Shown here piece by piece: positions 18,663-32,425 of a stretch of 37,551 nucleotides of DNA (positions are counted from its first letter, which is position 1; each line of letters starts with the position of its first letter). Source of the stretch: an uncultured Acidobacteriota bacterium (GTDB lineage: Bacteria > Acidobacteriota > UBA6911 > CAINFC01); the NCBI GenBank assembly GCA_903847975.1, contig CAINFC010000038.1, positions 1 through 37,551 of the forward strand, written 5' to 3'. The notes under the pieces were generated by a model, which worked only from the letters and a program-made list of their open reading frames with translations, did not search any database and was not told the DNA's origin. The translations under genes were made by a program, and so were the position numbers.

Positions 18663-18691
18663 TTGACACTTCCGCCGGGTGTCGTTACAAT
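18663..18691 (+). promoter_or_regulatory. Near-consensus sigma70 promoter for the GAF-PP2C / STAS / kinase unit
   Basis: A perfect TTGACA (18663-18668) is followed by a 17-nt spacer and TACAAT (18686-18691). Transcription is expected near 18698. This rules out the in-frame GTG at 18679 as a start and points to the ATG at 18796, leaving a leader of about 98 nt. It is one of the best promoter matches in the window and suggests housekeeping expression of the partner-switching trio. Confidence 0.75.
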
Positions 18692-18795
18692 CTGCCGTTG
18701 ATCGGAAGTGGGGAGAGCAGCCCTGGCGGCTTTTGCGCCCCGAAGAACTGACCCGGTTCCCTCGCGGGCCGTTGCCAATAGGAGTGCAGTACCCA

Positions 18796-20400
18796 ATGAC
18801 CACCGGTTTCGACCTGACCCGTCTCGAGGCGCTTTTGGAGTCGGCCCAACTCCTGCAAAGTTCCCTGGAACTGAAGCCCATACTGAAGCATCTGCTGCGA
18901 ACCGTCATGGGACGCCTGCCGGCGCTGCGCGGGATGATTGCCGTGTGCCGTCGGGAAGGCGGATCCAGGGTGGAGCTGGTCCGGGGTGCCGCCGCCTTGA
19001 CGGAAGGAAGTGTTTTCCATGAGGATTCCGCGCGGCAGGCAGGCATGGTACTTTTTTTCCCGATCGGCTCGCCTTCGGAGCCGGTAGGCGTGCTGGGCGT
19101 CGGGGGCCTGCCGTCGGCCGTAAAGCCGGAAGAAGCGGAGTTTATCGAAGCGCTTCTTGGGCTGGCGGCCAGCGTGATTTCCAATGCGCAGGCCCACGAG
19201 CAGGCTCATATTGCCAACCGGCTGCTCGACCAGCGCCTGCAGGAGCTGCGGGCCTTGCTGGACCTGGGGCGGGGCCTGGCGGCGGCCTTCGATCCCGAGG
19301 AGGTGGCCCGGCTGGTGGGCTACACCCTGGCGGGCCGATGGGCTATCTCCCGATACACCGTGGCTGCCTGGAAGGAAAATCATCCCTCCGTCCTCCGACA
19401 GAAAGGCATGACTCCGGGCGATTGGCCGGCACTGCAGGAGAAGTACGGCGCGTGTGTCGAGGCCCGGTTGACTCCGGAGGGAGGGCTGGTGCTGCCGATT
19501 CGCTCCCGGGAGTCGCCAATCGGCCTGCTGGTCTGCGGACCCCGTATGCCGGGGGTGGATTACGGGGAAGCGGACTTGGAGTTCGGTGCCGGTCTGGCGG
19601 CCCAGGCGGCAGTGGCCTTCGAGAAAGCCTGGCACCTTCAGGATATGCTGGCGCGGCAGCAGCTGGAAAAGGAGCTGGAGCTGGCCGCTGGCATTCAGCG
19701 CGATCTTTTCCCCTCCTCTTTGCCTTCGCTGGCCGGATGGGATGTTGCCGCACGGAATCGCCAGGCCCGGCAGGTCGGTGGAGACTATTACGACGTGCTT
19801 CCCTTTGCCGGGACCGGGCCGGAAGATCCCCACCTGCTGTGCGTCGCGGATATCTCCGGAAAAGGAATCGCCGCGGCCTTGCTGATGAGCACCCTGCAGG
19901 CGACGCTGCGATCCCTGTTGCGCCGTGAATCTTCCCTGGTGGAACTGGCCTCCATAACCAATGAACTGTTGTATGCCACCACACCGGCCAACAAATATTC
20001 CACCGCATTCCTGTGTGCCGTGCAACCCCGCACCGGAGAGTGCCGCTACGTCAACTGCGCTCATAATGCCGCTTTGCTGCTGCGCGCCGGAGGCGAAGTG
20101 GAGCTGCTGGACGGCCCGGGCTTCGCCCTGGGGCTTTTTCCGATGCGCACCCACCAGGAAAGGGAATTTGCCATGCAACCCGGCGACATCCTCGCACTCT
20201 ACAGCGACGGAGTGATCGAAGCGCAGAATCCGTCCGACGAGCAGTTCGAAATCGAGCGAATGAAGAGCTGCTTGCGGGAGAATGCCGGCGGAACCGCCGC
20301 GGAAATCGTGGATCGCCTGTTCGAGGCCATCGATGCCTTTGCCGCGGGCGCCCCTCAATATGACGACATTACCCTGATGATCGTAAAGAGAAATGACTGA
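18796..20400 (+). CDS. GAF-GAF-PP2C (SpoIIE/RsbU-type) serine phosphatase
   Basis: This 534-residue soluble protein has two GAF-like regions (about 10-155 and 180-325), a short helical linker (LARQQLEKELELAAGIQRDLFP, which resembles the RsbU linker) and a SpoIIE-type PP2C phosphatase domain (about 345-534). Metal-binding motifs are intact: VGGDYYDV, ADISGKGIAAAL, YSDGVIEA and YDDITLMIV. By family knowledge it would dephosphorylate a STAS antagonist, most simply the one encoded next. The start is the ATG at 18796, with AGGAGTG about nine bases upstream and a promoter further upstream. Signals reach it probably through the GAF domains; the ligand is unknown. Confidence 0.9.
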   Translation: MTTGFDLTRLEALLESAQLLQSSLELKPILKHLLRTVMGRLPALRGMIAVCRREGGSRVELVRGAAALTEGSVFHEDSARQAGMVLFFPIGSPSEPVGVLGVGGLPSAVKPEEAEFIEALLGLAASVISNAQAHEQAHIANRLLDQRLQELRALLDLGRGLAAAFDPEEVARLVGYTLAGRWAISRYTVAAWKENHPSVLRQKGMTPGDWPALQEKYGACVEARLTPEGGLVLPIRSRESPIGLLVCGPRMPGVDYGEADLEFGAGLAAQAAVAFEKAWHLQDMLARQQLEKELELAAGIQRDLFPSSLPSLAGWDVAARNRQARQVGGDYYDVLPFAGTGPEDPHLLCVADISGKGIAAALLMSTLQATLRSLLRRESSLVELASITNELLYATTPANKYSTAFLCAVQPRTGECRYVNCAHNAALLLRAGGEVELLDGPGFALGLFPMRTHQEREFAMQPGDILALYSDGVIEAQNPSDEQFEIERMKSCLRENAGGTAAEIVDRLFEAIDAFAAGAPQYDDITLMIVKRND

Positions 20401-20519
20401 CGGACACAATTCGGCCGGTGCGTTCCATGGAATCTTATTAATAAAACCGGGCGATCGGCCAACCTTATTCATACCGCAGGCAGCTCCGGGTTGTCTGCTT
20501 TTTCCGCCGGGAGGACACT

Positions 20520-20882
20520 TTGGTAAGAAATTTAGTACTGCACATCAGCCAGATCGACGGGATCGCGGTGATCGCTCTCGAAGGATTCCTCGATGCCCAT
20601 ACCGCCCCGCAGTTCGAGGAAGCGATTCAAAGCGAGATCGACGCCGGGCGCCGCAATATTGTCGTGGATTGCGCCCGTCTGCTGTATATTTCCTCGGCGG
20701 GGTTAGGCGTGTTTATGGGTTTTATCGGAGAGCTTCGCGAGACGGGCGGAGATATTAAAATATGCGGCGTTGCTGCCCCGCGGGTCCTGCAGCTCTTCGA
20801 AGTCAGCGGATTCAAGGACCTGTTCGGCCTGGCCGCGGATCTGCCCGCCGCCGTGGCCCTGTTCCGGGAAAAAGATAAGTGA
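20520..20882 (+). CDS. STAS-domain anti-sigma factor antagonist (RsbV/SpoIIAA type)
   Basis: This is a 120-residue single STAS domain. The segment RLLYISSAGLGVFMGF carries the phosphorylation loop; S59 in SAGL is the likely phosphorylated serine. The start is TTG at 20520, supported by GGGAGGA five to six bases upstream; no ATG fits better. In the family, the unphosphorylated form binds the anti-sigma kinase and frees its client. It lies between the PP2C phosphatase and the kinase, the classical gene order. The 119-nt gap before it shows no promoter I trust. Confidence 0.92.
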   Translation: MVRNLVLHISQIDGIAVIALEGFLDAHTAPQFEEAIQSEIDAGRRNIVVDCARLLYISSAGLGVFMGFIGELRETGGDIKICGVAAPRVLQLFEVSGFKDLFGLAADLPAAVALFREKDK

Positions 20883-20889
20883 GGCGGAG

Positions 20890-21375
20890 ATGAATGATTT
20901 CGGGCGTTGCTTCGAGCTGCGCGTTCGGTCATCGACGGAAAACCTGGCCCTGATCCGGGACTTCGTCGGAAATGTGGCCCGGCAGGGCGGCCTGAGCGAG
21001 AGCGATCTTTCCCTGGTCGAGCTGGCCGTGGACGAAGCCGGGGCCAACGTGATGGAACACGCCTATGGCGGGGACCCGACCAGGGAAGTCGTGGTTCGTG
21101 TCCGGCTTGATGCCGACGCCATTACCATCGAGATGCTCGACACCGGCCGGGGGTTCGATCCGGCCGCCGTCGAGCAAAAGGATTTGCAGAAACTGGTCGC
21201 CGAAGGGGCCCGCGGAGGGCTGGGGATGCGCTTGATGAAGCGGGCAATGGATGAGGTTCAATACCGGTCCGTGCCGGGAGGGCGGAACGAGCTGCGCATG
21301 GTGAAAAAACTCGGCAAGCCGCCGGGCCCGGAAACGACCGAAGAAGACCGGAAATCCGGCGGGAAAGGTGTTTGA
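20890..21375 (+). CDS. RsbW-like anti-sigma serine kinase
   Basis: This 161-residue protein has the GHKL-type ATPase fold of the RsbW/SpoIIAB group (HATPase_c_2). The N-box is in ELAVDEAGANVMEHAYGG with N53, the G1 box in DTGRGFDP with D84, and the G2 box in GGLGMRLMKRAMDEV. It would phosphorylate the STAS protein encoded seven bases upstream and, when not bound to it, hold a target. The start at 20890 is preceded by GGCGGAG. No sigma factor gene is adjacent, so the client is unknown. It is the last gene of the plus unit and faces the minus-strand cluster across a 96-nt gap. Confidence 0.92.
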   Translation: MNDFGRCFELRVRSSTENLALIRDFVGNVARQGGLSESDLSLVELAVDEAGANVMEHAYGGDPTREVVVRVRLDADAITIEMLDTGRGFDPAAVEQKDLQKLVAEGARGGLGMRLMKRAMDEVQYRSVPGGRNELRMVKKLGKPPGPETTEEDRKSGGKGV

Positions 21376-21471: not shown

Positions 21472-21846
21472 CTAGGCTCCCTCGATCGTGGGCATCAGCT
21501 TGCGCAAGGTTCCCAGCATTTTAGACTGCCAGCTGTATTCGGAACTGGTCATCAGGCGCAGCTTGGTGCCGCTGCTGCGCGCGGACAAGGCAACCCCGGC
21601 GAAAAGATTGATGCCCGAAGAGTTGAGCAGCTTGAGCTGGCGCACGTCCAAAGTCAGAACTCCGGTCGGCCCGATGGCCTCCACGGCAGCGCGCACCATG
21701 GACTTAATTTCGTCGTAGGAGTTCAGGCGCAGCGTTCCCCCAAACGTCACCGTCCCGGTTGCACGGCTGAATCGCACCAGGTATTCCGGCCCCGAAACAA
21801 CCGGGTCTGTTTCCGGACCCGCGGTGGAGTGATTTCCCTCATTCAT
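21472..21846 (-). CDS. STAS-like regulator (possibly Slr1659-type)
   Basis: This 124-residue protein has a short variable N-terminus and a STAS-like domain: LTLDVRQLKLLNSSGINLFAGV contains the phospho-loop serines, and the tail SSEYSWQSKMLGTLRKLMP matches the tails of the STAS proteins at 26834-27175 and 25037-26224. This is different from the classical antagonist at 20520. From memory the pattern recalls the cyanobacterial Slr1659 group, which pairs with an atypical ATPase; that link is tentative. The start at 21846 has AGAAGGG upstream. It is the last gene of the seven-gene minus unit, directly after its probable ATPase partner. Confidence 0.85.
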   Translation of the reverse strand: MNEGNHSTAGPETDPVVSGPEYLVRFSRATGTVTFGGTLRLNSYDEIKSMVRAAVEAIGPTGVLTLDVRQLKLLNSSGINLFAGVALSARSSGTKLRLMTSSEYSWQSKMLGTLRKLMPTIEGA

Positions 21847-21928
21847 GATATTAACCCTTCTTTTTCTTCCTTGGAAAAGTCGTGCCCAACCCGGCATCGG
21901 CCTGCAGCTCTCCGCCCGGTATATCTCC

Positions 21929-22495
21929 CTAAAAAACCGAAGCCGTGAGCCTGGCGCTTACCGACACGCGGCCCGGATGGGCAGGCTCGCCGGACTCAAA
22001 CCGCCAGGATAAATCCGCTCCGTGGTGGATCATCATCGTCAAAAACCCCAATCCCGAAACCTTGGCCTCGGGATGAGCTTCGTTGTGTTCCATGGTCGCA
22101 AAAAACTTCTCCTCCAAAGAGCTCTCACCGTCGAACAGCTTCTGGAGGCTGGCCTTGAATTTTTCCGACTTGGCGGCCTCGATGCGGTTGCTGACCACCA
22201 GGGTCACGGTGTGGCCCTTGGCGCCGGAACAGATTTCAATGCTGCCGCCGCTGCGCTCCTTGATGGCGTTCTCCAGGAGTTCGTTGGCCACGTAGTTGAC
22301 CGAGTCGCCCAATTCCGCCACTTCGCTTTTTTCCAGCTTCTCCAGATCCAGGGTCCCGGTGAGATGTCCCAGATAGCGCGATATCATGTCGCAGTGCGCC
22401 CACCGCGGGTGAAGCTCTTCGTTGAGCCGTATGCGGATCTGCGGATTTTCCTGCGTTATTTGGCCGGTGTAGTTCCGGATATCCTGTATTGCCAT
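21929..22495 (-). CDS. GHKL ATPase-like regulator (possibly Slr1658-type), probable STAS partner
   Basis: This 188-residue protein has an ATPase-like core: VNYVANELLENAIKE (N-box with N76) and VSGLGFLTMMIHHG (a shortened GLG box). A typical D-x-G-x-G box is not visible, so ATP handling may be unusual. The start at 22495 is supported by GGGAGG eight bases upstream; the longer in-frame extension is not. It lies between the Cache-PP2C phosphatase and a STAS gene, the order expected for a partner-switching trio. The protein at 26227-26730 is a diverged relative. The assignment to the Slr1658 group is from memory of the pattern, not from a search. Confidence 0.78.
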   Translation of the reverse strand: MAIQDIRNYTGQITQENPQIRIRLNEELHPRWAHCDMISRYLGHLTGTLDLEKLEKSEVAELGDSVNYVANELLENAIKERSGGSIEICSGAKGHTVTLVVSNRIEAAKSEKFKASLQKLFDGESSLEEKFFATMEHNEAHPEAKVSGLGFLTMMIHHGADLSWRFESGEPAHPGRVSVSARLTASVF

Positions 22496-22548
22496 AACCC
22501 TGCCTCCCTTTGAGCTGTTGTTTTCCGCCGTGCCGCCCACTGTCGGAA

Positions 22549-25005
22549 TTAGGTGACCCGGCGCTTGCAGACCACCAGGGTGATGTCATCCCACACCTTG
22601 GCGGAACCGATGTGTTGACGTACAGCCGCAATGATGGCATCGCGGATCTCCATAGCCCCCGCTCCCCGCGTGTTGCGGGCTATTTCCATCATTCGCTCTA
22701 TCCCGAAAAGATGGCCGGCCCCGTCGTCGGCCTCGGTGATCCCGTCGGTATAAACGATGAGTACATCCCCGGGGTCGAAAGGAATCTCCTGCAGGTTGAA
22801 AAATTCTCCGGCATCCGGAACCAGCCCGATGGATATCCCCAGATCCTGCGTGTCGATCCGCTCCACCTGTCCGTCGCCGCGGATGACCAGCACTTCCTCA
22901 TGCTGTCCGGTGATCGACCATTTCCCCATATGGTAGTCGAGATAGCACATGGTCAGATTCTTGTCGGTACCCATCCGCCTGGTGTTGTTGCAAACCATGC
23001 GGTTGGTCGCCTGGAGCACCTCACAGAGCGGGTGGGGCGAATAGGCGGAGCGGACCGTATCCCGACTCTCGACGGCCTGGGCGTTCAGCACGGCGTTGAC
23101 CGCCGCCTGAACCTGGAGCATCAAAGCTCCGGACTCCAATCCGTGTCCGGTCACATCTCCGATGCCGATTTTCACGTGTTCGTCCGGCAGGAACATCACA
23201 TCGTAATAATCTCCGCCGACTTCATCGGCCGGCTCCATAAAAGCGGCAATGTCGAGAACCGGATGTTGTTCCAAATCCGAGGCTTGCGGCAGGATCATTT
23301 GCTGCAGCCGCCGCGATATGTTCAGCTCGGCGGCCATGCGCGAGTTTTCCTCTCGAAGGCGCTCGGCCTCCGCCAGGTTGGCCGCCATTTCGTTGAAAGC
23401 CTGACCGAGCTGCCCGATCTCATCCTTGGTCTTGATCTGGCAGCGTACCGCATAGTCCTTCAGCGTAATGAGCTTTACTGCTTCATGAACCTGCTTGAGA
23501 CCCTGCCCCAGCGAATTGGCCATGGTCCGCACTACCAGAACTCCCAGGCTGGAAAAAACAAGAAGGAGGATCAAAGACATCTGCACCGACGCATAGGTTG
23601 CATTTTCGATCTGGGCGGTGGCCTCTTCGATCTGCTTTTGGGTGTCGGTCAGGATCCGGAACAGTTCGGCTTTCGGAACGGCCAGGCCCAGCAGCCACTG
23701 CGCGCGGGCCACTTTCTTTCCCGCTTCCGCCCAATAATTCATCGGCGCCAGACGCCGCATCAGAATAATGTAATCCTCCTTCGGTCCGGCGGCGCGCTGC
23801 ACGGTGCAGGTTTCCAGGGTGTAGTCGGTCGGCCCGGGGAATTTGAGCGCCCGAATGGTCGGCTGCGTGCTTTGGGTCAGGTAACGATTGAGTACGCTTA
23901 CTCCGCTGCCGGACCCTTTTTGCATCGTCAATCCTAAAATTTCCTCGGCGATGGGGGGCGCCGCCACCACATTCCCGTCCGGGGCCGCCAGAAAGGCAAA
24001 GCCGGTGTCGGCCAGCTTCACATCGCTGATCAGCCGCCGGGTCTGCTCGAGGGTCACGTCGATGGCCACGGCCCCCTGGCTTCCCTTGCGGTCCTTGCTC
24101 CACAGCGGGTAGAAATAGGTGACAATCTCGTTTCCCGTGCAGGCATCCTGGTACGGATAACTCACCGTGGTGTACTCCCCGCGCACCGGAACGGATTCCG
24201 GATCTCGGGCCCATTCATCCCACGACTGCAGGCAGCCGTCGAAATAAAACGGCCAGAAAGCGTGCGTGTTGTGTCCCGGATAGAGGCGATCGAAATTCTG
24301 AGCCTGCGGCAGCCACGGCGTGAGCCGCATAATCGGGGCGCGCGGAGCGCCGATCTGATAAACCTGAAGCTTGGGATTGCCGGACTTGAGAATGGCCGGA
24401 CCATAAAAATCAAAAACCGCCGTCTCCCGCACGTCTTTCATGACGTCCGGGCGAACCGGTTTGTCCGGGCCGGGCTCCAGCAGATACCCCCATACCGACA
24501 GAACCGAGGCGTCATCAGGCGGTGTCTGCCGCCAGCCTCCGATCTTGTAGGTTTCCTTGGTGGCCAGGGGCTGGCCCATGATCGATTTATCGGTGGTGAT
24601 TTCCGCAGGAGGCTGGTAGATCAGCTTGTCGTTCCACTCCGGCAGTTTTTCGGCTATACGGCCCAGCTGCTCCCGCGCCTGATCATGGTCGATGAGCCAC
24701 TGGGAAAGATTGGCCGTAATGGTCGCCTCCCGGAAGGTGGTCTGAAATAGAACGTCGACCCGTGATGCCACCGAGGCCGAATAGTTGTTCATCGCCTGGG
24801 TGGTTTCTTTGGTCAACCCGTCCGCAATGGTTTCTGTGGCTTTCCGGCCAAGGTTGCGAACGTTGGCCACGGCCGCCCTGCCCGCCCAGATCGACAGCGC
24901 AGCCGAGGATGCCATGGCTACCACCAGCACCCCCAACATGGAGGCCAGCAGTTTTTTGCGAAAGGACCAGCGGATGGTCTCGTTTTGGTGCTGCATTTTA
25001 TTCAT
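22549..25005 (-). CDS. Membrane Cache-HAMP-PP2C (SpoIIE-type) sensor phosphatase
   Basis: This is an 818-residue protein. Transmembrane helix 1 is at about 18-42, a large extracytoplasmic double-Cache sensor at about 45-470, helix 2 at about 472-495, then HAMP (about 495-545), a coiled coil and a SpoIIE-type PP2C domain (about 575-818). Metal motifs are complete: VGGDYYDV, GDVTGHG, YTDGITEA and WDDITLVV. It would turn an outside signal into dephosphorylation of STAS proteins. The Cache part (AIDVTLEQ, AAPPIAEEILGL) is clearly related to that of the kinase at 1883-4267 ([20 protein letters not shown]). No good ribosome site precedes 25005; an ATG three codons later is equally possible. It sits in the middle of the seven-gene minus unit. 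Confidence 0.9.
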   Translation of the reverse strand: MNKMQHQNETIRWSFRKKLLASMLGVLVVAMASSAALSIWAGRAAVANVRNLGRKATETIADGLTKETTQAMNNYSASVASRVDVLFQTTFREATITANLSQWLIDHDQAREQLGRIAEKLPEWNDKLIYQPPAEITTDKSIMGQPLATKETYKIGGWRQTPPDDASVLSVWGYLLEPGPDKPVRPDVMKDVRETAVFDFYGPAILKSGNPKLQVYQIGAPRAPIMRLTPWLPQAQNFDRLYPGHNTHAFWPFYFDGCLQSWDEWARDPESVPVRGEYTTVSYPYQDACTGNEIVTYFYPLWSKDRKGSQGAVAIDVTLEQTRRLISDVKLADTGFAFLAAPDGNVVAAPPIAEEILGLTMQKGSGSGVSVLNRYLTQSTQPTIRALKFPGPTDYTLETCTVQRAAGPKEDYIILMRRLAPMNYWAEAGKKVARAQWLLGLAVPKAELFRILTDTQKQIEEATAQIENATYASVQMSLILLLVFSSLGVLVVRTMANSLGQGLKQVHEAVKLITLKDYAVRCQIKTKDEIGQLGQAFNEMAANLAEAERLREENSRMAAELNISRRLQQMILPQASDLEQHPVLDIAAFMEPADEVGGDYYDVMFLPDEHVKIGIGDVTGHGLESGALMLQVQAAVNAVLNAQAVESRDTVRSAYSPHPLCEVLQATNRMVCNNTRRMGTDKNLTMCYLDYHMGKWSITGQHEEVLVIRGDGQVERIDTQDLGISIGLVPDAGEFFNLQEIPFDPGDVLIVYTDGITEADDGAGHLFGIERMMEIARNTRGAGAMEIRDAIIAAVRQHIGSAKVWDDITLVVCKRRVT

Positions 25006-25036: not shown

Positions 25037-26224
25037 CTAGGTTCCGCGCTGAGGTTTCTTCCCTATTCCGGCCCATACCGGCCAGGTTGCATAGCCGTTG
25101 GGCCGCAGAATCGCCTGCTGGTGGTCACGAAATCCCTGGCGCAACCGATCCAGGTAGTTCCCGTCGCTGCCTTTTTTGCTGGCCCAGCGGCAGTAGCTCT
25201 CCTCCCAGCTCCGGATGACCTCGGCAAACTCTTCCCGCACGCGGGGGTGGCCGCCGTCATCCTCGGTAGATACCACAAACTGGACATTGCGCACATCCTG
25301 GAGTCCGGAGGCCATCATCATCGCTTTTTGCTTCGGCCCCAGTTCGATGTCCATCTTGAAATGCGCCCATATCAGGGCCACCTGGTTATAAGTCCATTGG
25401 ATCGATTCTCCAAAGGGCTCCCCAAGGCAGTGAGAATTCTTCTCGTTGGTCACATATACCGTACCGCCAGGCTTGCAAATGCGTACGATCTCACTGAGAA
25501 TCTCCATGGGGCGATCGAAGACCTGCAGGGAATGCCGGCAGAAAACCACATCAAAAGTGTCGTCCGGAAGGAGCAGCGAAGCGGCATCCCCCACCTGGAA
25601 CTCAATGCCGTCCACCCCGAACTCCTCGGCCATCGCCCGGGCGTAATCCAGGGATCGTTTGGCATGGTCTACGGCAACCAGCCGTCCGGGTGAAAATGTT
25701 TTTTTGAGGTGCATGGCGAAATCCCCGATGCCGCAGCAGATATCGGCAACCGCGGCACCGGGCTTGAGAATACCTTCCACGAGGCTCTTTTCATGGCGCC
25801 AGGTCATCTTGGTCTGCGCCCGAAGGGCCGACACGAAGGCCCCATCCTCAAAAAGACTCTGGCCGGGATAAAAATCCTGGTCGTAGGTCTCCACCAATAT
25901 GTTCTCGTGCAACTGCTGCAGAGGCGCCAGCCGGGGGTAGGACCACGGAATCACGCTGGTGGTCACCACGCGAAATTTCTTCCCGGGGTTCTCTCTGGCA
26001 ACTTTCTGCAGGGTGCAGGCCAGCATCTGCAAGCCCATGGTGTTGAGCGCCGTAAGTCTTTTGGCGGCGATATAGAGAACCTTTCCGGGCGATGCCGCGC
26101 CTCGGGAAATGGCCTCCTCGACCGCGCGTGTCTCGGGCCCCGGCCCGACCGGCTGCAGCGCGCCCTTCAGATGAACCTGTTGGTCGTGTTCGTCGTACCA
26201 TACGGAAAATGCGGTTGTGCTCAT
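25037..26224 (-). CDS. STAS-methyltransferase fusion protein
   Basis: This 395-residue two-domain protein starts with a STAS-like domain (about 1-112). The segment TALNTMGLQMLACTL stands where its neighbours have LLNSSGIN, so both loop serines are replaced (T62, M63). The tail (TTSVIPWSYPRLAPLQQL) matches the paralogues at 21472 and 26834. The C-terminal half is a class I SAM-dependent methyltransferase: motif I VADICCGIGD (159-168), VAVDHAKRSLDYARAMA, a DDTFDVVFCRHSLQVF segment, and KPGGTVYVTNEKN. Its ribosome site (GGAGGAA) lies in the last codons of the upstream gene, two bases away. By inference the STAS part docks with a partner-switching protein and so ties methylation to the switch. 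The methylated substrate is unknown. Confidence 0.85.
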   Translation of the reverse strand: MSTTAFSVWYDEHDQQVHLKGALQPVGPGPETRAVEEAISRGAASPGKVLYIAAKRLTALNTMGLQMLACTLQKVARENPGKKFRVVTTSVIPWSYPRLAPLQQLHENILVETYDQDFYPGQSLFEDGAFVSALRAQTKMTWRHEKSLVEGILKPGAAVADICCGIGDFAMHLKKTFSPGRLVAVDHAKRSLDYARAMAEEFGVDGIEFQVGDAASLLLPDDTFDVVFCRHSLQVFDRPMEILSEIVRICKPGGTVYVTNEKNSHCLGEPFGESIQWTYNQVALIWAHFKMDIELGPKQKAMMMASGLQDVRNVQFVVSTEDDGGHPRVREEFAEVIRSWEESYCRWASKKGSDGNYLDRLRQGFRDHQQAILRPNGYATWPVWAGIGKKPQRGT

Positions 26225-26226
26225 GG

Positions 26227-26730
26227 CTATTCCTCCATCACCCGGTGGAGCGAAGCGTCCAGGCCGACCCGCATCTGGCCCAGATCGCGGACGGCAAGGC
26301 TGACTTTGTGGACCACCGTAAGCTCGATGAGCGACAAAAGCGTGGGAGCCGCTTCTTCCCGCCCCAGCAGTTCCAGGTACTGGTTCATTCCGGCGAGGCG
26401 GGCCTGCTCCACTTCCGAAACAATTCGCCGGACATTATCTCCGGCGTCGAATTCCAATTGAAAAAAGATTCCGCCCTCTGGAGCGCCGGCATTTACCTTC
26501 AACGTCCCGGCGCATCTTCCGGTCCGAAAGGCCAGTTCGAAAAGCTCATTGGTGATCGAAGAAACCTGCGAGGCGAAGCGCTGAGAGTCGGGGCTGTCGA
26601 GGGAAAGGACCTGCGCCACCAGGTTGGCCGTGTCGGAACAGGTGCTCCATCGGGACTGGAATGCGCTCCCCACCATCTCGATTTCAAACCACGATTTTTC
26701 CATTGGAGTTGTTGCTATTGTTTCTGTCAT
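26227..26730 (-). CDS. Degenerate GHKL ATPase-like protein
   Basis: This 167-residue protein has no strong family signature on its own. VSSITNELFELAFR aligns with VNYVANELLENAIK of the ATPase at 21929-22495, and the surrounding helices match in length. The key N-box asparagine is replaced by L66, and no glycine-rich ATP box is visible. It therefore probably binds its STAS partner without hydrolysing ATP. The start at 26730 has GGAG about ten bases upstream; a longer in-frame version overlaps the preceding STAS gene and is less likely. It lies between a STAS gene and the STAS-methyltransferase gene. Confidence that it is coding is high; the fold assignment is moderate. Confidence 0.7.
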   Translation of the reverse strand: MTETIATTPMEKSWFEIEMVGSAFQSRWSTCSDTANLVAQVLSLDSPDSQRFASQVSSITNELFELAFRTGRCAGTLKVNAGAPEGGIFFQLEFDAGDNVRRIVSEVEQARLAGMNQYLELLGREEAAPTLLSLIELTVVHKVSLAVRDLGQMRVGLDASLHRVMEE

Positions 26731-26833: not shown

Positions 26834-27175
26834 TCAATCAATGACCAGGTTCAGCGCTGGAAATAGCTTCTTCAAGTTCGGGAGCGACTTCCCCTGCCAG
26901 GGGATTTCCTTACTCCCATGGATAGTCAAGTCGGTCCCTTTCCCATTTCGCACCCCGATAACGAACTTGGCAATGACATTGATACCGGAACTGTTCAGCA
27001 ACTCCAGGCCGGTGAGGTCGATCGTAAGCCCCGCCGGAATGGCTGCCAGAGAATCGTTCAGAATAAGGGTCATATTATCATACTGATCATTGGAAAGGCG
27101 AAAGGTTCCGGTCAGGAAGACGGTCTTTTTATAAGTGTCCAACCAGATCTTGGCATTATCAGTCGTGAATTCCAT
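26834..27175 (-). CDS. STAS-like regulator (possibly Slr1659-type), second copy
   Basis: This 113-residue single domain contains TIDLTGLELLNSSGINVIAKFVIG with intact loop serines. Its tail SKEIPWQGKSLPNLKKLFP aligns with the STAS protein at 21472-21846. It is the second gene of the minus unit, 36 nt after the coiled-coil PP2C gene and 103 nt before the degenerate ATPase. The order phosphatase-STAS-ATPase repeats in this unit. AAGGA precedes the ATG. It is expected to be the phosphorylatable switch of the upstream half of the unit. Confidence 0.87.
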   Translation of the reverse strand: MEFTTDNAKIWLDTYKKTVFLTGTFRLSNDQYDNMTLILNDSLAAIPAGLTIDLTGLELLNSSGINVIAKFVIGVRNGKGTDLTIHGSKEIPWQGKSLPNLKKLFPALNLVID

Positions 27176-27211: not shown

Positions 27212-28141
27212 TCAAAGATCAACCAGGAAAATGGAGAAATCATCTTCAAAAGCGTCACATCCCTGGACCTTGCGCAGGTCGGCAATCAGGTCATCCAGCT
27301 GATAGGAACTTCCGCGGGGCATTTGGGCAAGGTACCGGGCCAGATCCTCCAGATCCAGCATGTCGGATTGATTGTGCTTCTGGATTTCGTAGGTGCCGTC
27401 GCTGAAGACGAAAAGCCGTCCGTCCGGCGGAACAATGCAGGATTGCATTTCATAGGTGATATCGGGCATTCCGCCGACGATAAGCTGCCGGGTTACGAGT
27501 TCTTTTACGGTGACGTTTCCCTCGCTGCCGGCGACCAGCAGGGCCGGAGGGTGTCCGCCGCTGGCGAATTTCAACACGCGGGTGGAAGGCTGGAAAACCC
27601 CGTACCACAGGGTGAAATACATGTTGTTCTGCTTGGACATGTCGAAGGCGTTGTTCATTCCGGTCAGGGCCTGCCCCGGATCCCGCATGTCGACGTTGGG
27701 CAAGCCGCCCGTGCGCAGGACGTTGATGGCGGTGACGGAAAGGAGGGCGGCCCCGACACCGTGGCCGCAGACGTCCAGCAGGTACATGGCAAAGTGGTCC
27801 GGATCGATCCAGTGGTATCCGAACGAGTCGCCCCCCAATTCCGAGGAGGGGATATATTTCCACTGGGTCACGGGATAATCCGACGAGGGTGCCGGAATGA
27901 TCGACTGAACGTAATTGGCGGCGTCACGCAGCTCGTGGGCCAGCCGTTTCTGCATGCGTTCCAGCTCGGCGTTTCGATCGGCCAGCTGGTCTTCAATGGC
28001 AACACCGTGTTCCATCATGTTTTCGTACATGAGGTTCATGTCTGCCAGCTCGTTTCGCAGGCGCTCGTTCTCTTCTTCAAGTCGAGCGACCTGTTCGGGC
28101 AGCGAACACGGATTTTGCGCCGCACCGGCTTCCGTAACCAT
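27212..28141 (-). CDS. Coiled-coil PP2C (SpoIIE-type) serine phosphatase
   Basis: This 309-residue protein has a long N-terminal coiled coil (about 20-90; LEEENERLRNELAD and repeats) and a SpoIIE-type PP2C domain (about 100-309). Motifs are ELGGDSFGYHWID, LLDVCGHGVGAALL, FSDGTYEI and the final DDFSIFLVDL, so the metal-binding acidic residues are kept. No receiver, GAF or membrane domain is present; the coiled coil may be the docking part. I chose the ATG at 28141, nine bases after AGGAGG; an ATG two codons earlier is possible. It is the first gene of the seven-gene minus unit and has a near-consensus promoter. Confidence 0.88.
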   Translation of the reverse strand: MVTEAGAAQNPCSLPEQVARLEEENERLRNELADMNLMYENMMEHGVAIEDQLADRNAELERMQKRLAHELRDAANYVQSIIPAPSSDYPVTQWKYIPSSELGGDSFGYHWIDPDHFAMYLLDVCGHGVGAALLSVTAINVLRTGGLPNVDMRDPGQALTGMNNAFDMSKQNNMYFTLWYGVFQPSTRVLKFASGGHPPALLVAGSEGNVTVKELVTRQLIVGGMPDITYEMQSCIVPPDGRLFVFSDGTYEIQKHNQSDMLDLEDLARYLAQMPRGSSYQLDDLIADLRKVQGCDAFEDDFSIFLVDL

Positions 28142-28203
28142 ATTCATCTTCCTCCTCAGACGATTGACAGGCAATATATTTTTGCGCTCAATCCCGGTGG
28201 CAA

Positions 28204-28519: not shown

Positions 28520-31500
28520 TCAGCCGAGCCACTCCTGCATCAGGTAGCGGATCACGCGGTACAGGCTGACCGGCATGGGAAACGTGGCCGGGTTGTAGCT
28601 TCTCACCCCGGCAAATTCCGAAGGATGGTTCAGCAGGATCAGCACGCGGTGGGCCTGGGGCTTTTCCTGTGCCGCCAGCCGCTCGAAGCTCCGGAAATCG
28701 GCAATCAGAAAATCGGCCTCGCGCGGCGGCTGCTTTTCGCGGACCTCGAACCAGGGGAAAATCCTGCGGATCTGATCGCGGAGAAGGGCCAATACTCCTT
28801 TGTTTTCCAGCCAGACGCAGAAAGCCCGGTATTCCGCGGTTCGGCCGCGCGCCATGGCTTCCAGCAGCGGAAAGCGGAAATCGCGGCGGCGGCTTCCTTC
28901 CGATTCCGGCTCTTCCCCGAGGCCCTCCTTGAGCCGTGCCGCGATTTTTTGCTGCGCCAGACAGGCGGCATGAGGCTGGGAGACCAGGAAACGCTCCAGG
29001 GCTTCCCACGGAATCGAGGCCGGGCTGAGGATCAGTTCCAGGCCTTTAAGGGCCGATTCCAGGCTTTTCACTTCTTCCAGCTGGACGGGAAGGTAGTCCC
29101 GGCATTTTTTCAACTCCGCGGATTCCTCCGCGCCGAGCCCTTCGGACCGCTGCTTTTGCAGAAGGTTCAGGGTTTCCTGAAACACGGAGAAGGTAACCAT
29201 GTCCTGGCACCGCCAGCGCTGGGCGCTGCGAAAAAGTGCGCTGAAGTCTTCGCGGAAGGGGCCGCTGGCCAGTTCCCGGTAGAAGGCCATGAAATTCGGA
29301 CGGGACGGATCCCCGAGCTGCAGAACCGGTTCGAATTCCAGCAGCCGGAAAAGGAGGTCCGCCCGGGCGCGCAGCTGGCCGGGGCTCCAGCTGGCCGGCA
29401 GCGGCCGGGCGAAAAAGCGGTGCAGCGCCTCCAGCGGAAACAGCCGGGCAACGGCGGAAAAATATCCGGGGGAGACGTCCTGAAACCGGTTTTCGAATTC
29501 CGGCTGGAACAGGGCCCGGCCATTTTCGAAATCGAAATTGGCGCGCATCTGATCCATGGCGGCCTGGCATATTTCTTCATCCGGCGAAGAGAGCAGCTCC
29601 CCGATGCGCTCCCGGAAGCCGGCGTAATTCTCGGCGGGAATGTGGGAGAGCAGGTGGAGAAGGGAAATGCGGTCCAGCCGGGGCATTTTTTCGACCAGCC
29701 GGGCAGTGGCTTCAGGCTGACGGAGCAGGGCGGCCAGGATTTTATCCCGGACAGGGCTTCTCTTTTCCCATTCCTCAAGCAAAAAAAGGCGGCCCTGCGC
29801 ATGGGAGGCCAGCGGCTCCAGCAGGGATTCCCGCAAATCGGGGCGATCCTGGGAAATCCGGATGGCCTCCTGGACAAAATTCCCCTGAGGATTTTTCATC
29901 AGGATCGGCAGCAGCAACGTCCGGGTGGAAAGGTCGGGATTTTTTTCATAAACCGGCCGGATATCTCCATCCATTGCCGACGCTGCGGCCGGATGCCGGG
30001 AAATGTACCGGTAAAGGTGGGCCAGCAGTGGCTTGGGAGGAGGTGCCGGGCCCTCTGCAGCGCCCTGCCAGAGGGCCAGCTCCCTGCGGGCGAAGCGGAC
30101 GATGGCCTCCTCTTCGGCGGGTCCGCCTTTTTCGCACAGCAGTTCGAAGGCCCCCATCCGGACCATGGGATCCTCCGCCTCGTCGAGATAGGCGGCAAAC
30201 ACTGCCAGGTTCGGCGCCTGGACTGCCTTCCGGAGCAAACGCATGGCGGCCTGGAAGGCCCGGGGATCCTTTTGCCCCAGCAGAAACTGCGGGATCAGGC
30301 CGAGGAAGGGAAGCCTCTCCTTCAGACGCAGGATTTCCCCTTGCACGAACCGGGTCAGGAAGGAATTGCGTACCCTCTCAAGCAGGACGGTCAGCGATTG
30401 CAGCGCCCGGTCGTCGTCCATGGCGGCGATGGCCTGGATGGCCTGCTTGCGGACCTGAATCGGAAAAGCGAGGCGCTCCGCGGCCGCCTGCAGCGGGGGC
30501 AGATGGCAGCCTTTCGGCCCGCGGCTCAAGGCATCGACCGCCAGGGCGACGAGGCGGTGCCCGGCAGGAGCCGTTTCCAGAAACCGGCAGATGTCTTTTG
30601 CCCCCGGCTCCCCCTGCGCTTCGAGGGCTTCCAGAAACCGGCGGGAAAAAACCTCTTCGGACCAGTCGACACCGGCTTCCAGCAGCTCCGCGACACGGAG
30701 AGCGGGGGGCGTATGGGCCCGCTCCGGAATCGCCAGGATTTCGGCCAGCATGCTTTCCCGGCGGGGATCCTGCACACCCGGCCGGATTCTTTCCAGGTCG
30801 GCCCGGCCGATGGAAGCCAGGTCCGGAAATCTCCGGAAATAGTCCCGCAGGCAGACGAGAGCCGATTCCGCCTCCGCGGCGTCGGAGGCCTCCGGGGAGG
30901 CGGCAAGGGAGTCCAGCGATTTCCGGCAGTGGTGCCAGATCATCGGCAGGGCATCGCGGCCGGCGGAAGAAGTGAGAATTCGCAAGGCACCCTGTCGTAT
31001 CTTTTCCGACGGGTGCATCAGAAATTCATAAAAAATCGGGGCATCCGCCGGTTTGAGAATCTTCTGCAACGTCTCCACGGCCGCCGGGAAAGACGCCTCT
31101 TCCCGGTCGTTGAGAAATCGCGGCAGCAGGGAAAGGATCGGATCATCCTGGCGGATCCGGGAAATGGCCTGCCCGATTTCTTCGATCAGCCGGGGGTCGG
31201 ATATTTTCCGCAGGTGACGGTCGAGAATCTGGAAGGCGGTCCGGTCACTGTATTTCGAAACGGCGACCAGGGCTTCCTTGGCGGTATGAAAGTCCGGGCT
31301 CTGTTCGATCGTCCTGCGGAGCACTTCCAGAAAAGAGGGAGCATGAACATATCCAGCTGTCCGAATAACCTGGAGGCGGATCTCGGCTGCGACCTCCGGC
31401 GATCCGATCAGCTCGGAAAAGACTTCCGCCGTCTCCCGGAAGGTGGGGGATCCCGAGCGGAACAGCTGTTCCAGCCGGTTCCGGAATTCCCGATCGCCCA

Positions 31501-32425
31501 GGGAGGAAAATTCGCGGACCAGTCCGAAGGCCGCCCGGCGGATCTCGTCGCGGACCCGGGCGTCCGCGCCCCAGGCAGAGGGACCGGATGGGGGCGGCGC
31601 TTCCCGCTCGATTCCCAGGGTGGACAGGGTCGAATCCAGCTTCCGTTCCTCGTAGGGCTTGAGCAGGAATCCGGAGCATCCCGCCTGCAGCGCACGGAGA
31701 ATGATATCCCTTTCGCTTCGGGAGGTGGTCAGGACAGCGCGGGGTGCCCCGGCTTTCAGGATCTGCTGCTGCTGCAGGATCCGCAGCCTGGCGAGGAGGG
31801 AGAAACCGTCCATGTCTCCCAGATCCAGCTCCAGAAGCACCAGGTGAAAGCGGATGGAATCCTCTCCGGAGGCTTTTAGCTTTTGAACGGCCAACCGTCC
31901 GTCGCGGGCCACCTCAACCTGCCCGAGCGAGGAGAGGTGCCGGCGTAAAAACTCCGTGGATTCCCGGTCCGCGTCCACGATCAGGCTGTTGAGGATCGGA
32001 AAAAAGCCCTCCAGGACGGGCTCCATCCGGCTCGGGTCGAAAGGCCGGGGCAGGCACGCGCAGCCGGCAGCCCCGGCCGATAGCAGCCGCTGTTTTTCCG
32101 CCGGCCCGGCGAACAGAACGACCCTGGCGGGAAGAAAACGATGGGAGTAGACCGGCAGGCTTTCGGCTTCCCTCATGCGGGATAAGGTTTCCATGCCCGG
32201 CTGGTCGGGAAGTTCCTGGCTCAGGACGATCAGCCGGTACGCCTGGCCGGACTGCATGGCCGCAATGTGAAGATGCAGAGCCTGCTCCCCGCCCTCGGCG
32301 ACGTCGCACCGGCCGAACGGCGACAGGAAGGCCCGCATCGCTTCCCGCTCCGGCGATTCCGGAAACACGATCAGCGCACGACGGCTTCCTGCCTTCCAGG
32401 ATGCCGGATGAATCTCCTGTTCCAT
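28520..32425 (-). CDS. Giant protein with two dead receiver domains and a HEAT-like solenoid
   Basis: This 1301-residue protein has no signal peptide. Residues about 15-140 form a receiver-like domain in which the phosphoacceptor position is S69 (LIVLSQELPDQPG), and the acidic pair is lost. Residues about 146-270 form a second receiver with a retained acidic site (LIVDADRES), E199 in place of the aspartate (LLELDLGDMDG) and K256. From about 300 to 1150 the chain is a run of paired helices resembling HEAT repeats. The last 65 residues (FLIADFRSFERL, then HRVLILLNHPSEF) look like part of another receiver. It is probably a scaffold that integrates signals by binding. It follows two lipoprotein genes with a 9-nt gap and lies upstream of the partner-switching unit. 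I know of no named family. Confidence 0.8.
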   Translation of the reverse strand: MEQEIHPASWKAGSRRALIVFPESPEREAMRAFLSPFGRCDVAEGGEQALHLHIAAMQSGQAYRLIVLSQELPDQPGMETLSRMREAESLPVYSHRFLPARVVLFAGPAEKQRLLSAGAAGCACLPRPFDPSRMEPVLEGFFPILNSLIVDADRESTEFLRRHLSSLGQVEVARDGRLAVQKLKASGEDSIRFHLVLLELDLGDMDGFSLLARLRILQQQQILKAGAPRAVLTTSRSERDIILRALQAGCSGFLLKPYEERKLDSTLSTLGIEREAPPPSGPSAWGADARVRDEIRRAAFGLVREFSSLGDREFRNRLEQLFRSGSPTFRETAEVFSELIGSPEVAAEIRLQVIRTAGYVHAPSFLEVLRRTIEQSPDFHTAKEALVAVSKYSDRTAFQILDRHLRKISDPRLIEEIGQAISRIRQDDPILSLLPRFLNDREEASFPAAVETLQKILKPADAPIFYEFLMHPSEKIRQGALRILTSSAGRDALPMIWHHCRKSLDSLAASPEASDAAEAESALVCLRDYFRRFPDLASIGRADLERIRPGVQDPRRESMLAEILAIPERAHTPPALRVAELLEAGVDWSEEVFSRRFLEALEAQGEPGAKDICRFLETAPAGHRLVALAVDALSRGPKGCHLPPLQAAAERLAFPIQVRKQAIQAIAAMDDDRALQSLTVLLERVRNSFLTRFVQGEILRLKERLPFLGLIPQFLLGQKDPRAFQAAMRLLRKAVQAPNLAVFAAYLDEAEDPMVRMGAFELLCEKGGPAEEEAIVRFARRELALWQGAAEGPAPPPKPLLAHLYRYISRHPAAASAMDGDIRPVYEKNPDLSTRTLLLPILMKNPQGNFVQEAIRISQDRPDLRESLLEPLASHAQGRLFLLEEWEKRSPVRDKILAALLRQPEATARLVEKMPRLDRISLLHLLSHIPAENYAGFRERIGELLSSPDEEICQAAMDQMRANFDFENGRALFQPEFENRFQDVSPGYFSAVARLFPLEALHRFFARPLPASWSPGQLRARADLLFRLLEFEPVLQLGDPSRPNFMAFYRELASGPFREDFSALFRSAQRWRCQDMVTFSVFQETLNLLQKQRSEGLGAEESAELKKCRDYLPVQLEEVKSLESALKGLELILSPASIPWEALERFLVSQPHAACLAQQKIAARLKEGLGEEPESEGSRRRDFRFPLLEAMARGRTAEYRAFCVWLENKGVLALLRDQIRRIFPWFEVREKQPPREADFLIADFRSFERLAAQEKPQAHRVLILLNHPSEFAGVRSYNPATFPMPVSLYRVIRYLMQEWLG

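Follow-up and report, generated by a model that had tools for sequence, protein, structure and literature searches.

The window (the whole stretch of DNA analysed here, 37,551 nucleotides) carries seven consecutive genes, separated by small gaps and all on the minus strand, that run from 28174 down to 21472 in its list of open reading frames. At their centre is a STAS-methyltransferase fusion, whose parts are given separately below.

27212..28174, minus strand: coiled-coil SpoIIE (PP2C) phosphatase (PF07228, 122 bits)
26834..27175, minus strand: STAS_b, predicted phosphorylatable antagonist with the loop LNSSGIN (NF047705, 115 bits)
26227..26730, minus strand: slr1658-like protein b, putative decayed kinase, or pseudokinase (hhalign to the profile of protein a, 94.4%; N-box Asn at the Mg-ligand position in 0 of 30; SGLG loop gone)
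25037..26224, minus strand: STAS-methyltransferase fusion, 395 aa (open reading frame and family scans; 29 full-length homologues)
25889..26224, minus strand: residues 1-112 of the fusion, predicted slr1659-type STAS domain (NF047705, E=4e-8; hhalign 97.7%; pLDDT mostly 69-97)
26027..26044, minus strand: phosphosite loop of the fusion, N61-T62-M63-G64-L65-Q66 (T62 codon at 26041-26039, aligned with SpoIIAA S58 and SiaC T68)
25040..25810, minus strand: residues 139-395 of the fusion, predicted class I SAM methyltransferase domain (PF08241, 72 bits; motif I ADICCGIGDFA, acidic D186; 3mgg match)
22549..25005, minus strand: dCache-HAMP-SpoIIE (PP2C) phosphatase, SiaA-like (PF07228, 121.7 bits; PF00672; four PP2C motifs intact)
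21929..22540, minus strand: slr1658-like protein a, predicted active GHKL kinase with NELLENA and SGLGFLT (NF047703, 111.8 bits)
21472..21897, minus strand: STAS_a, predicted phosphorylatable antagonist with the loop LNSSGIN (NF047705, 80 bits)

We took the ATG at 26730 as the start of protein b; its open reading frame as listed begins with a TTG at 26841. A scan of the whole 8.1-Mb genome found only three slr1659-type STAS domains, all inside the cluster, and two clear slr1658 proteins, a and b, both likewise in the cluster (one more match elsewhere is marginal, at 18.5 bits), and the set therefore looks self-contained. The G+C content of STAS_b, 49.1%, is clearly below the 57-59% of its cluster neighbours. 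Two distinct partner switches adjoin in the window. The second, an RsbU/RsbV/RsbW-like set on the plus strand (18679-21375), lies just past the 3' end of the slr1658/slr1659 cluster, whose genes are on the other strand, and consists of a GAF-SpoIIE phosphatase (18679-20400), a STAS protein with a phosphosite Ser (SSAG; 20520-20882) and a HATPase_c_2 kinase (20770-21375). Upstream of the cluster and on its strand (28520-32425, minus) lies the gene for a 1301-aa protein that combines HEAT repeats with a response-regulator receiver domain.

Comparison with the clusters of 29 relatives, Sinorhizobium meliloti 1021 among them, revealed a fixed arrangement: in all 30 clusters, the window included, the genes for b, the STAS-methyltransferase, the SiaA-like phosphatase, a and a STAS protein follow one another in this order on one strand. 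The transcription unit of the window has two extras, a second STAS protein and the coiled-coil phosphatase. STAS_b is the counterpart of the single STAS protein found elsewhere (40-46% identity to those of the Rhizobiales clusters), and 11 of the 29 other clusters are flanked, on the opposite strand, by a homologue of the coiled-coil phosphatase. The genes for b and the methyltransferase overlap by 1-4 bases in nine of nine clusters measured and lie 2 bases apart in the window, a tight spacing that suggests production as a pair. All 28 main phosphatases that were scored have the four PP2C motifs. Directly upstream of b, 13 of the 29 other clusters carry a GGDEF-EAL gene (for example L014:5699-7411; AGDEF and EALLRW motifs), which suggests a link to c-di-GMP. 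Downstream of the cluster, Rhizobium sp. CC-CFT758 has bcsA (cellulose synthase; L022:14403-16559), and S. medicae (L021) has genes for an AraC-family regulator and a UDP-glucuronate decarboxylase.

The 29 full-length homologues of the fusion, from Rhizobiales and other Alphaproteobacteria, are 45-50% identical to the window protein. They rule out a frameshift or gene-fusion artefact, and the conservation of the fusion's motifs rules out a pseudogene. Genome contigs of Rhizobium, Mesorhizobium and another Rhizobiales bacterium yielded full-length homologues (46-48% identity). Around the Rhizobium match, the fusion is present in 21 of 397 genomes sampled from its order, 4 of 385 from its class and 6 of 398 from its phylum, counts that include the starting genome. 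A plasmid search returned 120 records, mostly from Sinorhizobium, among them the pSymB copy of S. meliloti 1021 (461150-462322); this cluster may bear the locus tags SMb20447-20452, for which a literature search gave no match. Within the 396-genome sample of the window's own phylum, the fusion was found in the window's own genome only. Matches in other genomes of that phylum (L007-L011) were rejected as fusion homologues, being stand-alone methyltransferases, and the viral contigs searched held no confirmed relative. The closest unfused relatives in the own-phylum sample (L015-L019) are methyltransferases of about 270 aa that lack a STAS domain, share 26-29% identity with the methyltransferase part and have no partner-switch genes near them, save two weak matches in L018; this family begins EMADESMVRNLAAQAEAIWPQE. 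Pairwise identity among the alphaproteobacterial fusions is at least 55%, against 45-50% between them and the window protein, which makes the latter an outlying member. The family occurs mainly in Rhizobiales and was perhaps spread by horizontal transfer. From its gene content, the host of the window is taken to be an Acidobacteriota-like bacterium.

Residues 3-109 of the fusion match the slr1659_superfam model NF047705 at 33.5 bits, against a curated cut-off of 100 bits; as its homologues score 31-38 bits, the N-terminus is a remote homologue and not a member by cut-off. Matches to NF047705 recur in three fusion homologues (E=2e-7 to 2e-9). Two profiles, one of ten fusion N-termini and one of ten STAS proteins from the neighbourhood, were paired by hhalign over 105 of about 112 columns (E=2e-12). 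Both groups share a PW motif whose Trp never varies (W94 in the fusions, W93 in the STAS proteins). Among STAS positions, N61, G21, R56, W94 and others show little or no variation across 30 fusion proteins. These family matches, their recurrence in homologues, the profile alignment and the genome scan rule out a chance resemblance. An AlphaFold model built on a 9-row alignment had a mean pLDDT of 70 (40 in a single-sequence run), with most of its confident residues in the stretch 1-110 (block pLDDT 69-97). This part shows the STAS order b-b-a-b-a-b-a-b, and residues 61-62 open helix 2, the position at which both SiaC and the 4QTP antagonist have their phosphosites (PMC7647112). Searches with the full-length model by Foldseek and VIA-align returned no PDB STAS chain among the matches listed, both lists being filled by matches to the methyltransferase half. 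On its predicted strand and helix order and its profile similarity, the N-terminus (about residues 4-112) is assigned a STAS fold.

In the remainder of the protein, residues 154-262, approximately, match Methyltransf_11/25/31 (E~1e-19), the PF08241 score stands against a gathering threshold of 21.2 bits, and motif I and D186 are conserved in 30 of 30 fusions. In a fold search of the model, this half resembled 3mgg (Z 19.5, 224 residues, 3.0 A). The fusion is, on these motifs, a predicted class I SAM methyltransferase with its motifs intact; it falls below the UbiE/MenG equivalog cut-off (59 bits against 216). As the closest folds are small-molecule methyltransferases, the modelled enzyme probably acts on a small molecule or lipid. 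Of the two halves, the methyltransferase is the slower to diverge, with 53-60% identity against 24-36% for the STAS half. The original prediction had described a STAS domain, alignable over residues 1-112 with two neighbouring STAS proteins down to the PW motif, fused to an intact class I methyltransferase, and that description holds. The two outcomes that would have refuted the prediction did not occur: the N-terminus is modelled as STAS, and all homologues but one lack the serine.

For the STAS half, the position taken as the phosphosite is important. The loop reads LNTMGLQ in the fusion and LNSSGIN in the STAS proteins beside it (31 of 31 in the 30 clusters). The SpoIIAA chain has MDASGLG in 1til/1tid where 1thn/1th8 has MDSSGLG (PDB chain sequences), and SiaC is phosphorylated on T68, within LLYLNTSSIK (PMC7647112); because of these two cases we place the phospho-acceptor at the first residue after Asn/Asp, hence at T62 and not M63 in the window fusion. 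Across the 30 fusions this position is Asn in 23, Met in 5, Thr in 1 (the window) and Ser in 1, so that Ser is absent in 29 and any hydroxyl in 28; the preceding Asn is kept in all 30 and the next Gly is replaced by Ala in 29. With Asn, Met or Thr in nearly all members, the loss of the serine is therefore a family trait. The STAS anti-sigma-antagonist type is defined by a phospho-acceptor Ser at the start of helix 2, and the window fusion, with T62, falls outside it. Thr is, however, the accepted residue in SiaC; phosphorylation-blindness therefore holds for 28 of the 30 relatives, while the window copy, which keeps a phosphorylatable residue, may yet be phosphorylated. Thus the change from NSSGIN to NTMGLQ was correctly noted at the outset, with the site now moved from the T62-M63 pair to T62; the accompanying claim, that the STAS part can no longer be switched by serine phosphorylation, stands for the family, in which a single homologue keeps the serine, and is unsupported in that form for the window protein itself.

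The two slr1658-like proteins of the cluster have fared differently. Protein a exceeds the 100-bit cut-off of NF047703 and qualifies for the slr1658 superfamily, with the N-box Asn in 30 of 30 and the SGLG loop in 29-30 of 30. Protein b reaches 23.3 bits against the same cut-off and is highly divergent (17-26% identity); it keeps the Asn-Glu of the N-box, has Thr, Leu, Val, Met, Ile or Ala at the Mg-ligand position, and is missing the SG of the ATP loop. The roles of these motifs as catalytic base, Mg ligand and ATP lid in a and b would follow those in the GHKL family. The product of the gene at 26227 had been taken for an ATPase, a view contradicted by the loss of the N-box Asn and G-box in all 30 clusters; by its motifs, protein b is better read as a pseudokinase that decayed with the STAS half of the fusion. 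As b and this STAS half both lack the parts for phosphorylation, and a second copy of each keeps them, the loss would therefore have occurred together. The motif pattern of a, b, the STAS proteins and the fusion therefore points to one live and one dead kinase/antagonist pair, with the enzyme on the dead pair. In the S. medicae record CP140910.1, protein b (L021:7486-8004, WQO70173.1) is annotated as 'ubiquinone biosynthesis methyltransferase UbiE', a name probably carried over from the neighbouring gene.

From the anatomy of the cluster, its conserved order and its pattern of lost and retained motifs, we infer a complex of b with the STAS-methyltransferase, its displacement and the direction of control. 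Kinase a, the NSSGIN STAS protein or proteins and the sensor phosphatase (22549-25005) would make up the live half, which would set the phosphorylation state of STAS according to a periplasmic signal. Pseudokinase b and the STAS-methyltransferase would form the dead half, made adjacently and joined through the usual GHKL-STAS interface, a pair that would neither phosphorylate nor come apart by phosphorylation. With the phosphatase dominant, dephosphorylated STAS protein may compete for b and displace the methyltransferase, which may then change in activity or location. We regard it as an even call whether the module indeed consists of two copies of a kinase/STAS pair, one live and one dead, with dephosphorylated STAS displacing the methyltransferase from b. 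The cluster has the components of a partner switch, and one with a methyltransferase as client, as first suggested for this gene, is plausible; a partner protein may capture and release the enzyme.

This reading is supported by the gene order in 30 of 30 clusters, the paired motif loss, the b/methyltransferase spacing, the genome-wide uniqueness of the set, the PP2C motifs and the precedents of SiaC-SiaD and BgrV-BgrR. Against it count the possibility that T62 is still phosphorylated, the one homologue with Ser, the divergence of b, and the faster divergence of the STAS half, which would also fit relaxed constraint. We put at slightly under even the chance that the methyltransferase is a client held by the pseudokinase via a phosphosite-less STAS domain, the duplicated pair forming a phosphorylation-blind output module under the live copy.

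The holder in SpoIIAB-type switches is the kinase itself, and the STAS-methyltransferase might accordingly dock on kinase a, the live one, in lasting competition with the NSSGIN STAS protein, with b as an accessory or stabiliser; phosphorylation of the STAS protein would then free a to hold the methyltransferase. In favour of this reading, the GHKL protein a is intact and is the sole clear slr1658-type kinase of the genome. However, the translationally coupled neighbour is b, not a, and in every cluster the decay of b parallels that of the STAS half, so we consider docking on a unlikely. Slightly less likely again is that the STAS half has no switching role and persists as a structural or dimerising remnant, while the enzyme methylates a signal molecule or a protein of the cluster, for example in feedback or adaptation. 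The lost phosphosite and the far lower conservation of the STAS half would agree with such a remnant, but the near-invariance of its STAS positions in 30 proteins and the retention of the degenerate partner b in 30 of 30 clusters argue otherwise. We think it improbable that kinase a still phosphorylates the window protein on Thr62 and so switches the methyltransferase directly: T62 does lie exactly at the SiaC T68 site in the same L-N-T context, but 28 of 30 family members have Asn or Met there, and the coupled neighbour b has, by sequence, no ATP site.

Keyword searches of an open-access library of papers, of which only four name slr1658 or slr1659, found no description of a STAS-methyltransferase in such a cluster, nor STAS domain, SAM-dependent methyltransferase and SpoIIE together. 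An output consisting of a methyltransferase held by a pseudokinase thus appears undescribed, and bacteria appear here to switch an enzyme on and off by exchange of protein partners in a form not described before. The partner-switch outputs that we compared in the literature are sigma factors and diguanylate cyclases, to which a methyltransferase would add new chemistry; if true, the way in which kinase and antagonist decayed as a pair would reveal how a phosphorylation switch can evolve into a two-protein lock. The proposal is directly testable, since S. meliloti 1021, a genetic model, carries the cluster on its pSymB.

Among known systems, the slr1658/slr1659 superfamily (NF047703, NF047705) contains close relatives of a, STAS_a and STAS_b, with a and STAS_b above the cut-offs, whereas b and the fusion N-terminus are remote, below the cut-offs and devoid of the catalytic or phospho-acceptor residues. 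The SiaABCD system of Pseudomonas aeruginosa combines phosphatase SiaA, kinase SiaB, STAS-like SiaC and diguanylate cyclase SiaD. Our cluster likewise has a HAMP-PP2C membrane phosphatase related to SiaA, a small GHKL-type kinase, a STAS-like phosphoprotein and an enzyme output, and in 13 of 29 relatives it adjoins a c-di-GMP gene. It differs in that the output, a methyltransferase, has a STAS domain of its own fused to it, that there is an extra pseudokinase, and that the antagonist is of the slr1659 type, not DUF1987. No protein passed the SiaA, SiaB or SiaC cut-offs (70 bits for the SiaA model against an equivalog cut-off of 700), and the window proteins scanned had no SiaC match at E<=1 and no GGDEF domain. 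Control of diguanylate cyclases through a STAS or STAS-like protein is described for SiaC-SiaD, HsbA-HsbD and BgrV-BgrR (PMC8457831). BgrUWV-BgrR resembles our cluster in its STAS-based control of an enzyme and belongs to S. meliloti, which also carries the fusion cluster (PMC7647112, PMC8457831), but it acts on a diguanylate cyclase, and neither a methyltransferase nor a pseudokinase is mentioned in the descriptions cited. Finally, SpoIIAA/SpoIIAB and RsbV/RsbW follow the same scheme, in which a PP2C phosphatase and a GHKL kinase act on a STAS antagonist whose phosphosite is at the start of helix 2; unlike in those switches, the client here would be an enzyme tied to a phosphosite-less STAS domain rather than a sigma factor.
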